Below are positions 4,109-27,915 of a stretch of DNA of 33,576 nucleotides, in pieces. Every line of letters begins with the position of its first letter. Within the stretch, counting starts at the first letter, position 1. Both the position numbers and the translations under genes were made by a program. The stretch is taken from assembly GCA_016223025.1 (NCBI GenBank), contig JACRPU010000123.1, forward strand, positions 1 to 33,576. The letters run 5' to 3'. The notes under the pieces were generated by a model. The model saw nothing but the letters and a program-made list of their open reading frames with translations. It was not told where the DNA came from and ran no database searches. Source of the DNA: Nitrosomonadales bacterium. GTDB lineage: Bacteria; Pseudomonadota; Gammaproteobacteria; Burkholderiales; Gallionellaceae.

Positions 4109-4721
4109 TCTGGCAACACCCAAGGAGCGGCTCACCGCCTACCAGCGCTGGGAGTTGCCGGCCTTTGACGCGGCGGGAGCAAGAAACGGAAGCGCCGCCG
4201 CCCCCATGCCCACCGCAGCCGAGCTGGAGCAAGCCCGACGGCAGGCGCACGAAGCAGGTTACCGGGAGGGCTACGCCGAGGGCGGGCAACGGGCAGCCAA
4301 GGAAGCGCAACGCATGTCGCAGATGCTGGACGCGCTGAACCTGGAATTGCAGCGGATAGACCAGCAGGTCGTGCAGGGGCTGCTGGATCTGTCGCTGGAA
4401 ATTTCCCGGCAAGTGCTGCAGCAGGCGCTCAAGGTCAAACCGGAACTGCTGCTCGACGTGGTGCGCAGGGCCGTCAGCGAACTGCCGCTTTTCAACCAGC
4501 ACGCCCATCTGGTGCTGCACCCGGACGATGCGGAGCTGGTGCGCGCACGCATGGGCGAGCAGCTCGGTCACACCGGCTGGAAAATCATCGAGGACGATCA
4601 AATGGAACGGGGAGGCTGCCGCCTGGAAACCGCGCACAGCCAGATTGACGCCACGCTGGCCACGCGCTGGCAACGGGTGGCCGCGTCCGTCGGGCAGGAC
4701 AGCACATGGCTGGCGCCCTGA
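4101..4721 (+). CDS. fliH: FliH, regulator of the export ATPase
   Basis: A 206-residue cytoplasmic protein that dimerises, binds FliI and links the ATPase to the C ring. The N-terminal part is Ala-rich, followed by the Gly-repeat segment [12 protein letters not shown] and a long helix. The C-terminal half resembles the V-ATPase subunit E-like fold ([20 protein letters not shown], then HPDDAEL and GGCRLET). The FliH family is weakly conserved, but position between fliG and fliI with overlaps of 8 and 16 bp makes the call secure. Confidence 0.94.
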
Positions 4722-6124
4722 CAGATTCCGGGGGCCACGCCCGGCGCTGGTGGGCCTGTTTGCAGGACAGCCGGGAAGCGGTCGCGCAGTGCAAATCCCT
4801 GCTGGTCAGCGGTCGCCTGACCAAGGTGACCGGGCTGGTGATGGAGGCGGTCGGCCTGAAAATGGCGGTGGGCGGAACCTGCGTTATCGAATTGCCCAAC
4901 CACAGCGTCGAAGCGGAAGTGGTCGGTTTTTCCGGCGAAAGATTGTTTCTCATGCCCGAAAATGACGTGCATGGCCTGATACCCGGCGCGCGCGTGGTGC
5001 CGCTGGAACCGGCGCGCGTTCCGGTGCTCGGCGGCAAGCGCCGCACGCGGCGGCGCGCGGCGGATCGCACGCGCCACCTGCCGGTGGGCGACATGCTGCT
5101 GGGCCGCGTGCTGGATGGCGCCGGGCGCCCGCTGGACCCGCTCGGCCCGGTGCCGGAAGAAGACTCCGCGCCGCTGCAGAGCCGCCCGATCAACCCGCTG
5201 GAACGCGCCCCGATCAAGGAGGCGCTGGATGTCGGCGTGCGCGCCATCAACAATCTGCTCACCGTCGGGCGCGGCCAGCGCATGGGGCTGTTCGCCGGCA
5301 GCGGCGTGGGCAAGAGCGTGCTGCTCGGCATGATGGCGCGCTATACCGGCGCCGATGTTATCGTGGTCGGGTTGATCGGCGAGCGCGGGCGCGAAGTGAA
5401 GGAGTTCATCACCGACATTCTGGGCCGCGAGGGCATGGCGCGCTCGGTGGTGGTCGCCGCCCCGTCCGACACCAGCCCGCTGATGCGCTTGCAGGGCGCC
5501 GCCTACGCCACCACCATCGCCGAATATTTCCGCGACCGGGGCAGGCATGTGCTGCTGATCATGGATTCGCTCACCCGCTATGCCATGGCGCAACGCGAAA
5601 TCGCGCTGGCGATCGGCGAGCCGCCCGCCACCAAGGGTTACCCGCCTTCCGTGTTCGCCAGGCTGCCGCAACTCGTGGAGCGCGCCGGCAACGGTGCGGA
5701 AGGCGGCGGCTCGATTACCGCGTTCTATACCGTGCTGACCGAAGGCGACGACCCGCAGGATCCCATCGCCGACAGCGCGCGCGCCATCCTGGACGGCCAC
5801 ATCGTGCTGTCGCGCCGCCTGGCCGAGCAAGGCCATTATCCCGCCATAGATATCGAGGCCTCCATCAGCCGCGCCATGAATCATCTGGTTTCCGAACAGC
5901 ACTTCGACTTGGTACAATATTTCAAGCACCTGTACGCGCACTACCAGCGCAACCATGACCTGATCAGCGTGGGAGCCTATGTCAAAGGCAGCGACCCCTT
6001 GCTGGACGAGGGAATCGCGCTGTATCCGCAGATGGAACAGTTCCTCAAGCAGGGCATGTTCGAGCGCGAGGAGTTCGGCAACGGGGTGGCGTCGTTCAAC
6101 AGGCTGTTTGACAAAACGCGCTGA
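4706..6124 (+). CDS. fliI: FliI, flagellum-specific export ATPase
   Basis: A 472-residue ATPase of the F1-beta/T3SS SctN family that unloads chaperones and primes substrates for export. Walker A is GSGVGKS (about 198-204), the catalytic glutamate lies in GERGREV (about 225-231), and Walker B is LLIMDS. The Arg-rich stretch [16 protein letters not shown] at about 110-125 precedes the conserved LPVGD...[14 protein letters not shown] block. It starts inside fliH (16-bp overlap) and is followed by a 158-bp gap holding a structured repeat before fliJ, the first real break in the operon. Confidence 0.98.
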
Positions 6125-6128
6125 GACT

Positions 6129-6263
6129 TTGTGAAAAATTCGACGCGAGCGAAGTCGGGTTGGATGCGGCTGGAGCGCAGCCGCCGGAATGGTCAGGGAA
6201 ATACATGAGGATGGCGAGCACCACCCGCATCCATGATGCCGGGCGCAGTAGAATTTTTCACAA
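6129..6263. repeat. Structured dispersed repeat, copy A (MITE/REP-like), fliI-fliJ gap
   Basis: Perfect 13-bp inverted ends TTGTGAAAAATTC (6129-6141) and GAATTTTTCACAA (6251-6263) bound the element. Inside, the boxes GCGAGC and GCGCAG occur twice in the same orientation (6145/6175 and 6214/6243), each pair enclosing an arm; TGGATGCGG (6161-6169) in the left arm pairs with CCGCATCCA (6225-6233) in the right arm. Positions 6145-6261 align without gaps to 26342-26458, with 86 of 117 identical by my hand count. It fills most of the gap between two co-transcribed genes. No coding capacity for a transposase, so it would be mobilised in trans if mobile. Confidence 0.85.
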
Positions 6264-6282
6264 GCTCCGAGGCGCATAGATC

Positions 6283-6744
6283 ATGACCAAACCCTTCCCC
6301 CTGCAACCGCTGGTGCATCTGGCGCACCAGAAGAACGATGCCGCCACGCGCAAATTCGGCAAACTCAACCAGCAGCAGCAGGCCGCCCAAGCCAGGCTGG
6401 AAACATTGCTGCAATACCGCAGGGACTATCAGGCGCAGTTTCAGGAGGCGGTGCAAACCGGCATGGGCCAAACCGACCTGCGCAATTTCCAGAATTTCAT
6501 CCTGCGCCTGGACGAAGCCATCGCCCAGCAGCGGGAAACTGTCGAGCGGGCGCTCAGCTCGATGCAGGCGGGGCGCGACGAGCTGGAAGACACCCAGCGC
6601 AAAATGAAATCCTTCGACACACTGGCGCAACGCCATGCGGAAAGCGAAAAAAAACTTGCGGCAAAATCCGAACAGCGCCTCCAGGACGAGCACACCGGTC
6701 GCCATGCCACTTTCAAGGCCACCTCCGCACAAAACGAAAGCTGA
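6283..6744 (+). CDS. fliJ: FliJ, export chaperone-escort/ATPase stalk protein
   Basis: A 153-residue, almost wholly helical, coiled-coil protein (Gln/Glu/Lys/Arg-rich, few Gly or Pro), as expected for FliJ, which sits in the FliI hexamer pore and contacts FlhA. The N-terminus FPLQPLVHLAHQKNDAATRK is typical of the family, and the C-terminus has the charged LAQRHAESEKK segment. GAGG lies about 10 bases before the ATG at 6283. fliK follows after 14 bp. Confidence 0.93.
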   Translation: MTKPFPLQPLVHLAHQKNDAATRKFGKLNQQQQAAQARLETLLQYRRDYQAQFQEAVQTGMGQTDLRNFQNFILRLDEAIAQQRETVERALSSMQAGRDELEDTQRKMKSFDTLAQRHAESEKKLAAKSEQRLQDEHTGRHATFKATSAQNES

Positions 6745-11263: not shown

Positions 11264-11315
11264 GTAAGTCGTTAGCGGGTAGTTAATTACCGCCCCCTGC
11301 CGGCTAACGACTTAC
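11264..11315. repeat. Inverted repeat (hairpin) in the fliP-fliQ gap
   Basis: Perfect 13-bp arms GTAAGTCGTTAGC (11264-11276) and GCTAACGACTTAC (11303-11315) with a 26-base spacer. The right arm runs into the heptamer tandem array, so the arms are built of the same heptamer unit. There is no U-tract after it, so it is not a standard terminator. Confidence 0.85.
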
Positions 11316-11394
11316 GACTTACGACTTACGACTTACGGCTTACGACTTACGACTTACGACTTACGACTTACGACTTACGACTTACGACTTACGA
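11304..11394. repeat. Heptanucleotide tandem repeat, 13 units of CTTACGA
   Basis: Thirteen contiguous 7-bp units fill 11304-11394: 11 are exactly CTTACGA, the first is CTAACGA and the fifth is CTTACGG. It ends 11 bases before the fliQ ATG (11406). A 7-bp unit changes spacing, not reading frame, because it is intergenic. Such arrays are prone to slipped-strand length change. Confidence 0.97.
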
Positions 11395-11405
11395 CCAAAT
11401 AATTT

Positions 11406-11675
11406 ATGACCCCGGAAAGCGTAATCACACTTGGCCGCCAGGCGCTGGAACTGACCCTGCTGGTATCTGCCCCGCCGTTGCTGGCGGCGCTGGTGATCGG
11501 ATTGGTAATCAGCATTTTCCAGGCCGCCACGCAGATCAACGAGATGACCCTGACGTTCATTCCCAAACTGGTTGGCATGTTCGTCATGCTGATCGTTGCC
11601 GGCCCGTGGATGACCGGCATGATGGTGGACTACATCCAGCGCCTGTTCGCCAGCATCCCGTGGCTGATCGGGTAA
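11406..11675 (+). CDS. fliQ: FliQ, export gate protein
   Basis: An 89-residue two-TM protein of the export gate (four copies around FliP/FliR). Conserved text: MTPESVITLGRQALELTLLV and ISIFQAATQINEMTLTFIPK. The start is unambiguous, but the leader is unusual: the heptamer array occupies the position of a ribosome binding site and no purine-rich SD is visible in the 11 bases between array and ATG (CCAAATAATTT). Translation may depend on local structure or coupling; see findings. Confidence 0.96.
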   Translation: MTPESVITLGRQALELTLLVSAPPLLAALVIGLVISIFQAATQINEMTLTFIPKLVGMFVMLIVAGPWMTGMMVDYIQRLFASIPWLIG

Positions 11676-19630: not shown

Positions 19631-19658
19631 GGTTAAGCCCTTCCAGTTGTTAGACGCA

Positions 19659-19731
19659 AGTCGTAAGTTGTCAGTTAAACCAAAACCCCGCGCAGCGGAC
19701 AACGCCAGCTACCAACTAATAACTTGCGACT
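19659..19731. repeat. Imperfect inverted repeat related to the fliP-fliQ heptamer element
   Basis: Arms AGTCGTAAGTTGTCAGTT (19659-19676) and AACTAATAACTTGCGACT (19714-19731) pair over 18 bases with 3 mismatches and a 37-base spacer. The left arm reads as degenerate heptamers AGTCGTA-AGTTGTC-AGTTAAA, the same unit as the CTTACGA array on its other strand. It fills most of the flgF-flgG gap. Confidence 0.7.
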
Positions 19732-25550: not shown

Positions 25551-26306
25551 CTATTGCGCGGGCGGCTCGACTGCGGGCGACAAGACGGTTACGGTGACCC
25601 GGCGGTTGCGGGCGCGCCCCTCTGCGGTATCGTTGGATACAATCGGACGGTTGGCGGCGGAACCCACTGCGGTCAACCGGGATGCCGCCACTCCGTGCTC
25701 GATGAACAACCGCACCACGCTGCTGGCGCGAGCCGAAGACAGTTCCCAGTTGGAAGGGAAGCGCGCGTTTCTGATCGGCGTGTCGTCGGTATACCCTTCG
25801 ACCTCGATGCTCTGATCTCCTTGCCCCAGTATCTGCGCCACCCTGGCCATGGTTTTTATCGAGCCGCTTTGCAGCTCCGCCTCTCCCTGGTTGAATAGCG
25901 CGCTGGCATTGATTTCCAGCACCACTCCCCGGCTGGTGCGGGTGATGCTGACCAGGCCGCTCGCGATCTGGGCCGCCATGGCCTGGCCGAAGTCGCTGGC
26001 GACTCCCTGCATGTACTCCTGCTGTTTGCGCATCCGTTCCAGCAGCCGCGCATTCCTGCGATCCACCAGCGACTTCAGCAATGTATCCTGTTCGCCGCCG
26101 GATTCTGACGCTTCCTGCCGGGTTGTTCCCTGCTTGCCGAATGCGGTCGTCAGCGCCTCGCTGAACACCTTGTATTTTTCAATGTTGACCGCGGAAATGG
26201 CATACATCACCACAAAGAACGCGAACAGCAGGGTAATGAAATCGGCGTAGGAAATCAGCCATCGCTCGTGGTTTTCGTGTTCCGGCCGTTTGGGGCGACG
26301 CGCCAT
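25551..26306 (-). CDS. motD: MotD/MotB-family stator protein
   Basis: A 251-residue stator subunit that anchors to peptidoglycan. RRPKRPEHENHERWLISYAD then FITLLFAFFVVMYAISAVN is characteristic of MotD, the second MotB paralogue known from Pseudomonas; Asp22 in SYADFITLL is the expected proton-binding residue and the single TM follows. The C-terminal OmpA-like domain has IEVEGYTDDTPIRNARFPSN, ELSSARASSV and NRPIVSNDTAEGRARNRRV. Linkage to fliA and a MotC-type partner supports MotD over MotB. It is 158 bp from motC, and that gap is filled by structured repeat copy B. Confidence 0.93.
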   Translation of the reverse strand: MARRPKRPEHENHERWLISYADFITLLFAFFVVMYAISAVNIEKYKVFSEALTTAFGKQGTTRQEASESGGEQDTLLKSLVDRRNARLLERMRKQQEYMQGVASDFGQAMAAQIASGLVSITRTSRGVVLEINASALFNQGEAELQSGSIKTMARVAQILGQGDQSIEVEGYTDDTPIRNARFPSNWELSSARASSVVRLFIEHGVAASRLTAVGSAANRPIVSNDTAEGRARNRRVTVTVLSPAVEPPAQ

Positions 26307-26325
26307 ATCGCGGGCTCTCAGAGAC

Positions 26326-26458
26326 TGAAAAAAAACTCGTCGCGAGCGCGGGCGGGCCGGGTGCGCCCGGAGCGCAGCCCCCGGAATATATATAGAAATA
26401 CTTGGGGAGGGCGAGCACCGGGCAACTCCGGCCTGTCAAGCGCAGCAGAATTTTTCAC
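26326..26458. repeat. Structured dispersed repeat, copy B, motC-motD gap
   Basis: The core 26342-26458 aligns gaplessly with 6145-6261. The boxes GCGAGC and GCGCAG again occur twice (26342/26372 and 26411/26440). Its left arm has GGCCGG (26355-26360) pairing with CCGGCC (26428-26433), and GCCC (26365-26368) pairing with GGGC (26420-26423), in the same register as the different arms of copy A. The right end GAATTTTTCAC (26448-26458) is identical to copy A; the left end is a degenerate TGAAAAAAAACTC. The flanks CTCAGAGAC and GTCTCTCAG add a further near-inverted repeat outside. Confidence 0.83.
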
Positions 26459-26464
26459 GGTCTC

Positions 26465-27205
26465 TCAGGCGAGATAGCCCTGCAACTTGTTCTCGATGAA
26501 GCGCGGGTTTTCGCCGCCGGCTATGGCCGCCAGCCCGTCCACCAGAATTTCGCGCATCATCACCTGTTGCGCGATCAGTATCTTGAGCTTGCCGGCCATG
26601 GGCAGAAACACCAGGTTCGCCAGGCCCACGCCATAAATGGTGGAAATGAATGCGACCGCAATGCCCTCGCCCAGTTTCGATGGCTCGCCCAGGCTCTGCA
26701 TGACATGCACCAGGCCGAGCACCGCCCCGATAATGCCGATGGTGGGCGAATACCCGGCAGCCGATTCCCACACGCGCACCGATTGCCAGCGCAACTGCTC
26801 GTAACTGTGTATATCCACTTCCAGCACCTCGCGGATTTTTTCCGCGCTGTTGCCATCCACCAGCAGTTGCAGCCCTTTTTTCACGAACGGGTCGCGGCTG
26901 CCGGCGATCTGCGGCTCCAGCGCCAGCACTCCGTCCCTGCGCGCCAGGCCGCTCCATGCGGCGATCTGGTACACCAGCTTTTGCGCGGGCAACGGCGGCG
27001 TGACGAACACCCAGCGCCCCATCCCGATACCCGTCAGGAAAACCTTCAGCGGGTTTTGCAGCATCACCGCACCCAGCGTGCCGCCGAACACGATGAGGAA
27101 GGCGGCGCCCTGGAACAGGATGGAAATCGAGCCGCCTTCGAGCAGTTGCCCGCCCACGATGCCGCCGAGGCCGAGCAGCAAACCGGCAATGCTGAGCTTG
27201 TCCAT
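26465..27205 (-). CDS. motC: MotC/MotA-family stator protein
   Basis: A 246-residue proton-channel stator subunit with about four TM segments. GGTLGAVMLQNPL, KKGLQLLVDG, and GYSPTIGIIGAVLGLVHVMQ followed by GIAVAFISTIYGVGLANLVF are MotA/MotC features, the latter holding the conserved channel prolines. The text is closer to MotC than to enteric MotA as I recall them. The start ATG shares its A with the fliA stop (TGATG on the minus strand), which fixes it; a 19-residue upstream extension is not needed. It should pair with MotD. Confidence 0.93.
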   Translation of the reverse strand: MDKLSIAGLLLGLGGIVGGQLLEGGSISILFQGAAFLIVFGGTLGAVMLQNPLKVFLTGIGMGRWVFVTPPLPAQKLVYQIAAWSGLARRDGVLALEPQIAGSRDPFVKKGLQLLVDGNSAEKIREVLEVDIHSYEQLRWQSVRVWESAAGYSPTIGIIGAVLGLVHVMQSLGEPSKLGEGIAVAFISTIYGVGLANLVFLPMAGKLKILIAQQVMMREILVDGLAAIAGGENPRFIENKLQGYLA

Positions 27206-27915
27206 CAATGGCCCTTCAGCGCGTTGCGCAAGCGGGCGACCGCCTGGCTGTGCAACTGGCACACGCGCGACTCGCTCACGCCCATCACCTCGCCGATTTC
27301 GCGCAGGTTCATGTCCTGCTCGTAATGCATGCCCATCAGCATGCGCTCGCGCTCCGGCAAAGTGCCGATCGCCTTGATCAGCGCTTCGCGGAAATGATCA
27401 TCCTGCAACAGCGCGAGCGGATCGGCGTCGCTGTCGAAATTGTAGCGATCCAGGAAGTTCTCGTCGTCCTCGCCGTGGAAGTCCTCGTAATACAGAAGTT
27501 GCGCGCCGCGCGATTCGAACAGCATCTGCTGGTATTCGTCCAGCGGCATGCCCAGTTCCCTGGCGACCTCCGATTCGTTCGGGTGCCTGCCCAGCCGCTG
27601 CTGCAATTTGCTCAGCGCCTGCTCGATGCGGCGCATGTCCCGGCGCAGGCCGCGCGGCATCCAGTCGGACTGGCGCAACTCGTCCAGCATGGCGCCGCGG
27701 ATGCGTTGCGAGGCGAAGGTTTCGAATTGCGCGCCGCGCAATTCGTCGTATCTTCCGGCGGCCTCCAGCAACCCCATCATGCCGGCCTGGATGATGTCGT
27801 CCACCGATACGCTGCTGGGCAGCCGCGCCATCAAGTGATAGGCGATACGTTTGACCAGCGGCGCATATTCCCTGAGGCACTGCTCCTTGTCGCTCGATCC
27901 GTTTGCGGTATACAT
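27205..27915 (-). CDS. fliA: FliA, sigma-28 factor
   Basis: A 236-residue flagellar sigma factor. Region 2 (SVDDIIQAGMMGLLEAAGRY and FETFASQRIRGAMLDELRQS), region 3 (LGRHPNESEVARELGMPLDE) and region 4 (LPERERMLMGMHYEQDMNLR then EIGEVMGVSESRVCQLHSQA) are all present. Its predicted targets in this window are the promoters before flgK and flgM, and FlgM is its predicted inhibitor. Its own promoter, in the 124-bp gap after flhG, shows no sigma-28 match. Coupling to motC (TGATG) puts the stator in the same transcript. Confidence 0.98.
   Translation of the reverse strand: MYTANGSSDKEQCLREYAPLVKRIAYHLMARLPSSVSVDDIIQAGMMGLLEAAGRYDELRGAQFETFASQRIRGAMLDELRQSDWMPRGLRRDMRRIEQALSKLQQRLGRHPNESEVARELGMPLDEYQQMLFESRGAQLLYYEDFHGEDDENFLDRYNFDSDADPLALLQDDHFREALIKAIGTLPERERMLMGMHYEQDMNLREIGEVMGVSESRVCQLHSQAVARLRNALKGH

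Follow-up and report, generated by a model that had tools for sequence, protein, structure and literature searches.

The described systems that come closest to the repeat analysed here are MITEs of the IS5 type (IS1031 and IS427 groups), the REPIN elements, the Correia element (CREE) of Neisseria, ERIC, and the catalogued small RNA sX9 (RF02228). In REPIN/RAYT systems an invariant GTAG or GGAG tetranucleotide precedes the hairpin, and target-site repeats are not expected from the RAYT mechanism. ERIC is similar to our element in size, pairing, terminal repeats and dispersion. Within the IS427 group, IS1237 carries IS1031-like residues and is described with a duplicated TAA at its target (PMC2516522). 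For sX9, one report lists it among the most prevalent sRNAs (PMC9029176), a second gives its genes as up under copper (PMC10924375), and a third predicts it in two Herbaspirillum strains (PMC6337395).

The window, by which we mean the whole analysed stretch of 33,576 nucleotides of contig JACRPU010000123.1 from a Nitrosomonadales bacterium, contains two copies, A and B, of an imperfect hairpin that is probably a non-autonomous, MITE-like element of about 143 bp, mobilised in trans and built around a strand-specific folded core. The features on which this reading draws are listed below in order of position; R1 denotes a covariance model built from 28 elements, and G001 is the nearest relative of the host and the sole genome of the same genus in our sample.

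4706-6124, plus strand: fliI-type ATPase gene (Pfam ATP-synt_ab, T3SS_ATPase_C); A starts directly after its stop codon
6122-6124, plus strand: left target-site copy of A, TGA, which is the fliI stop codon (sequence)
6125-6267, plus strand: element A, 143 bp, imperfect hairpin over its full length (R1 match, RNA fold, flanking repeats, empty site in G001)
6125-6141, plus strand: left terminal inverted repeat of A, pairs with 6251-6267
6141-6250, plus strand: core of A, matched by R1 at 89.4 bits, E 2e-23
6145-6150, 6175-6180, 6214-6219 and 6243-6248, plus strand: boxes GCGAGC, GCGCAG, GCGAGC and GCGCAG of A
6251-6267, plus strand: right terminal inverted repeat of A, pairs with 6125-6141
6268-6270, plus strand: right target-site copy of A, CGA, one mismatch against TGA (sequence)
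6283-6744, plus strand: fliJ, 3' of A (Pfam FliJ)
25551-26306, minus strand: motB-like gene, downstream of B in the direction of transcription (Pfam MotB_plug, OmpA)
26318-26320, plus strand: left target-site copy of B, TCA (sequence)
26321-26464, plus strand: element B, 144 bp, imperfect hairpin over its full length, in the same orientation as A (R1 match, RNA fold)
26338-26447, plus strand: core of B, matched by R1 at 94.3 bits, E 8e-25
26342-26347, 26372-26377, 26411-26416 and 26440-26445, plus strand: boxes GCGAGC, GCGCAG, GCGAGC and GCGCAG of B
26465-26467, minus strand: right target-site copy of B, TCA; read as TGA on the minus strand, it serves the motA-like gene as stop codon (ORF end, sequence)
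26465-27262, minus strand: motA-like gene, its stop codon abutting B (Pfam MotA_ExbB)

The gapless alignment of 117 bp between 6145-6261 and 26342-26458, on which the original prediction was based, holds 85 identities, where about 86 had been counted, and the module spacing GCGAGC-N24/N23-GCGCAG is present in both copies as claimed. The repeat is thus real, but its proposed unit was too short: because the paired outer stems are part of the element, the unit extends over 6125-6267 and 26321-26464, the limits of A having been set from the flanking repeats and the empty site in G001. RNA of either strand folds into a single long hairpin, with energies of -61.4 kcal/mol (plus) and -53.1 kcal/mol for the two strands of A, -67.7 (plus) and -62.1 kcal/mol for those of B, and z-scores of -3.7 to -4.6. 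The four boxes had been read as paired protein-binding sites, a reading that found no support: judging from the predicted folds, the boxes face each other inside the hairpin and look like two internal-loop motifs that point in opposite directions. A BLAST search with A against the whole host genome recovered B (E 7e-16) and, on contig C29, a further copy (E 3e-38); the minimum free energy fold of the latter within its context is not a full-length hairpin. Rfam models at gathering score gave no match on the whole window. Elsewhere in the window, a tandem array of heptamers (CGACTTA-like) lies at 11287-11409, with an inverted trace at 19645-19675.

Both copies are clean insertions at stop codons, A between fliI and fliJ and B between the motA-like and motB-like genes. 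Empty sites in relatives had been suggested as a check of the original prediction, and for A, the copy for which this was tested, one was found: the site is cleanly empty in the nearest relative (FliI identity 92%), which has the same fliI stop codon and a fliI-fliJ gap of 12 nt, compared to 158 nt in the host. Among the 26 FliI loci compared, one of which is cut off before the stop codon, the element occurs in the host's locus only, and the remaining 24 show no element in the sequence printed 3' of the stop codon.

Relatives of the element are widespread. Of 80 genomes covered by a DNA search, 25, including that of the host, contain them, and R1 matched six places in the host genome and 89 places across ten other genomes. 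Counting the host in each case, R1 matches occurred in 34 of 48 genomes of the family and 43 of 299 genomes of the phylum. Such a collection of copies by covariance model was another check proposed at the outset, where a lack of further copies, or copies with unpaired arms, had been named as counting against the repeat; many more copies were found, with arms that do pair. Scanning named genomes with a pattern returned at least 116 stretches, many of them from metagenome assemblies, under titles that include Gallionella, Sideroxydans, Thiobacillus, Herbaspirillum, Polaromonas, Xanthomonas melonis, Rhodanobacter and Rudaea, as well as two contigs of Chlorobium ferrooxidans, a member of another phylum. 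The copies in the contigs titled Chlorobium ferrooxidans (L186 1297-1406 and L197 5446-5554) have their own kinds of ends. Against plasmids, A gave just one weak Deinococcus match and the relative L096 one Comamonas match, and the relative L089 found no match among phages. Six of 87 viral loci (L366, L393, L394, L406, L407 and L412), all contigs of a viral collection, carry the family core beside its ends. Literature searches with the box sequences returned nothing on this repeat among the titles listed, searches with the loop sequences returned unrelated papers only, combinations with the term MITE returned none, and the end sequences brought up a single paper; for sX9, the three reports named above were accompanied by unrelated ones only. 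A Xanthomonas oryzae primer given in one paper contains one of the family's end sequences (PMC4853030).

Counts over individual elements refer to a combined set of 160, two of which are one and the same locus fetched twice; these were excluded when ends and strands were counted, and kept in the gene-context counts. The first part of the set came from 82 matches in 79 loci, of which five were dropped (three copies of known loci and two extra low-scoring matches), with the nested copy L028 added by hand, and the second from 85 matches, of which three were dropped, in 78 searched loci of the 80 listed.

Contig C7 of genome G254 holds a tandem array at 364058-364412, with three consecutive R1 matches whose starts are spaced by 121 and 125 bp. 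On host contig C21 (L005 1503-1562), a short derivative of about 60-70 bp keeps both ends and the outer boxes, and the inner core is absent. In L028 (from about 1592), L053 and L031, the hairpin gives way to other sequence at nearly one shared position, directly behind GAGGATGG (GAGGGTGG for L053); the remainder of the element returns about 100 bp further along in L028. The bacterial locus L072 (918-1019) gave matches below the cut-off to the Rfam miRNA family mir-Ro6-3 on both strands, and may represent another palindromic repeat.

As in MITEs, the element is short, non-coding, multicopy and dispersed (about 143 bp, six host copies), and it has terminal inverted repeats and a target-site duplication. 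Of 157 distinct elements, 107 have outer ends whose pairing reaches the set score, and the other 50 are without a clear outer stem. We tried 13 end positions for identical flanking 3-mers and found more than in permutations at four of them, with 14 of 158 versus 4.1, 14 versus 4.0 and 17 versus 4.5 (each 0/300), and 9 versus 3.1 (2/300); the TA-rich class of ends (TACATAGCG...) adds to this excess, and in that class a repeat is indistinguishable from the palindrome. TNA flanks both sides near the stem end in 34 elements, 19 of which agree in N. Within the class of ends that start with G, which was defined after the rows were seen, N agrees in 17 of the 19 elements with TNA on both sides, L085 and L212 being the two that differ. 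Ends of the class CAGGCTG... are flanked by TTAG or CTAG repeats in four copies (L038, L042, L071 and L115). The core is found inside several classes of ends, and so is conserved whichever ends carry it.

The placement at stop codons seen for A and B recurs across the family. With gene calls taken as simple, uncurated open frames, 34 of 148 gene ends have their stop codon 14-18 nt from the core, compared to 7.4 expected if the distribution were flat over -5 to 60. These edge stop codons lie on the 3' side 28 times and on the 5' side six times over all rows, or 27 and five times where both neighbouring genes were called. Taking dnaA as the origin and rounded genome sizes in ten genomes, the element runs against replication in 57 cases and with it in 32 (p 0.011); we rejected a model based on the replication strand, the signal being weak and perhaps owed to the way in which genes are oriented.

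A search for a partner transposon with the same ends found no IS among the listed loci that were inspected, in genomes of which several are drafts, namely 30 from the host's own genome, nine from genome G295 and 30 from three other genomes, and none among the 87 viral loci with four end patterns. The three other genomes each contain 54-121 end sites, compared to 15-21 for a control pattern; in 27 of their 30 end-pattern loci an inverted partner lies within 220 bp and is the element itself, and R1 matched 21 of the 23 of these loci that were submitted to it. Inverted partners within 220 bp occur at six of 30 loci of the host's own genome and two of nine in G295. A crude IS test yielded five candidates in the genomes and five among the viral loci, none with matching flanks.

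The covariation that the original prediction drew from two copies extends to 84 distinct sequences. In an alignment of these that was fitted to the covariance model, and so leans towards it, 97.3% of 1989 cells are standard pairs, and pairing falls to 25-44% when the partners are slid by one to three columns. Changes on both sides occur in 15 of 24 pairs, and the covariation score is 0.343 versus 0.101 in shuffles, none of 500 shuffles scoring as high. A first MAFFT alignment, made without model fitting and read with a structure derived from that same alignment, likewise showed double changes that preserve the pairing at 15 of 24 pairs. The internal loops and boxes are conserved and unpaired throughout the alignment.

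To ask which strand folds, we compared G.T with A.C oppositions on the plus strand. In the outer stems, which lie outside the model, G.T occurs 78 times versus 17 for A.C over 94 distinct end pairs; per element, 48 favour G.T, six favour A.C and 40 are ties. After clustering of related ends, with each position taken once per cluster, the count is 66 versus 18, and the clusters divide 27 to three with 14 ties. Pairs in the covariance alignment give 45 versus 17, a count that may lean with the model and that omits one pair whose commonest form is G.T. A crude count over the inner arms by a simple aligner reverses the sign (G.T 143, A.C 210) and is confounded by conserved mismatched columns. RNA of the plus strand is the more stable in 111 of 155 elements and the less stable in 42. 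Since G.T is far above A.C in the outer stems, the fold of one strand, the plus strand, appears to be selected. The original prediction had proposed selection or a mobility requirement for a folded RNA or a cruciform DNA; selection on a folded strand and mobility are both supported, by the many further copies with pairing arms, the target repeats and the empty site of A. A cruciform, symmetric in DNA, is the less probable form, since G.T exceeds A.C on one strand, which is also the better folding of the two in 111 of 155 elements.

Template switching can yield compensatory changes, and since the whole element is a quasi-palindrome, a non-selective repair process that copies arm onto arm could in principle give apparent covariation without function. 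We regard it as improbable: mismatched internal loops and asymmetric boxes persist that such repair should erase, their conservation in unpaired form argues against simple palindrome repair, and a process that treats both DNA strands alike would not be expected to raise G.T above A.C on one of them. The X. melonis copy is matched by R1 at 92.7 bits and, on the opposite strand, by an overlapping sX9 match at 94.4 bits, well past the gathering score, and sX9 spans the element from the terminal loop through one arm to the element end. Six of 17 scanned loci reach the sX9 gathering score, and H. rhizosphaerae UMS-37, one of the two Herbaspirillum strains named in the sX9 prediction (PMC6337395), carries the element at L155 with an sX9 match of 57.4 bits. 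The element could thus be a host RNA, either a hairpin in mRNA 3' ends or an sX9-like sRNA, with copies kept for regulation, termination or mRNA stability; the prevalence of sX9 (PMC9029176) and the copper induction of its genes (PMC10924375) would suit this, as would the genes whose ends lie no more than 30 nt from the core, which read the minus strand 53 times and the plus strand 25 times. We nevertheless consider this explanation unlikely. Most of these genes would transcribe the minus strand, but the G.T over A.C signal is on the plus strand. In the catalogue, sX9 is a small RNA gene, with 76 nt on the strand opposite to the element. A and B have no sX9 match up to E 10, and the host copies on contigs C14 and C20, at 34.2 and 34.8 bits, stay below the cut-off of 44. 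In tandem gene settings the element lies in gene orientation 30 times and in the opposite orientation 38 times, and the copy at the fliI site is found in the host alone among the relatives compared.

Among mobile repeats, a REPIN-like element, dependent on a hairpin-recognising single-strand transposase of the RAYT type, would account for a short, palindromic sequence in many copies with no partner IS seen and a plus-strand bias, and many copies do have GTAG at the first box. This tetranucleotide is not invariant, as GTCG, GTTG and GTGA also occur there, and target-site repeats are present, so we consider such an origin doubtful. REPIN/RAYT and ERIC share with our element that they are short, palindromic and multicopy with no visible autonomous copy; they were set apart by the target-site repeats and the variable GTAG. 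Membership in a known palindromic family such as CREE or ERIC is very improbable, although these resemble the element in size, in pairing over the full length, in having terminal repeats and in the dispersion of their copies. CREE in particular is a short palindromic repeat with terminal inverted repeats, with 211 end-pattern sites in one genome, and its published ends were found in six of 399 genomes of the order. Its ends differ, however (TATAGTGGATTAA), and no kinship was detectable by covariance model or sequence profile: R1 with default filters gave no match up to E 10 in 30 loci, 25 of which have a delimited CREE, and the family's sequence profiles reported no CREE, while reporting shuffled controls at up to 3.3 bits. 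CREE was accordingly dropped as a relative, its core showing no detectable similarity to ours in sequence or structure.

IS5-type MITEs of the IS1031 and IS427 groups share the terminal inverted repeats, the TNA-type repeats of 3 nt, and the non-coding, dispersed character of our element. They differ from it in that no partner IS was found here, a structured core is common to several classes of ends, and the pairing is strand-specific; the type of target repeat is the single tie of the element to the IS5 family. In the MITE-like reading that we favour, a DDE transposase of the IS5 type, supplied in trans, would move the element, as the TNA repeats fit the IS1031 and IS427 groups. The inner part, GCGAGC...GGAGCGCAG...TGAGGAT...CGAGCACCG...GCGCAG, would be retained because the plus strand must fold, and this fold would act in RNA or, in the course of transposition, in single-stranded DNA. 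Several observations sit less easily with this reading. Several kinds of ends with one core are unusual for a simple MITE, symmetric ends leave the excess of edge stop codons on the 3' side unexplained, and the right target copy of A carries one mismatch. To these come the 50 elements that have no clear outer stem, the lack of an IS with matching ends among the loci inspected, the incomplete hairpin of the C29 copy and the reversed sign of the crude inner-arm count. It is possible, although we hold this only tentatively, that the element is a selfish, folded, strand-specific cassette that has spread through Pseudomonadota and into Chlorobium inside differing transposon ends. The plus strand of such a cassette would have to fold, as RNA or single-stranded DNA, for copying and placement at stop codons, and sX9 would be half of its complementary strand and no independent regulatory gene.

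Taken as a MITE-like element with a folded core, the repeat brings a previously unplaced sequence and a catalogued sRNA together into one widespread mobile family of clear anatomy. Annotation pipelines may be entering as sRNA genes what are in fact mobile-element copies. If the fold of the plus strand is needed for movement, the family would show an unusual mix, in which target repeats like those of DDE transposons are combined with a strand-specific hairpin. Repeats of this kind can settle at stop codons and leave operons unbroken, as they have done here among flagellar and motor genes.
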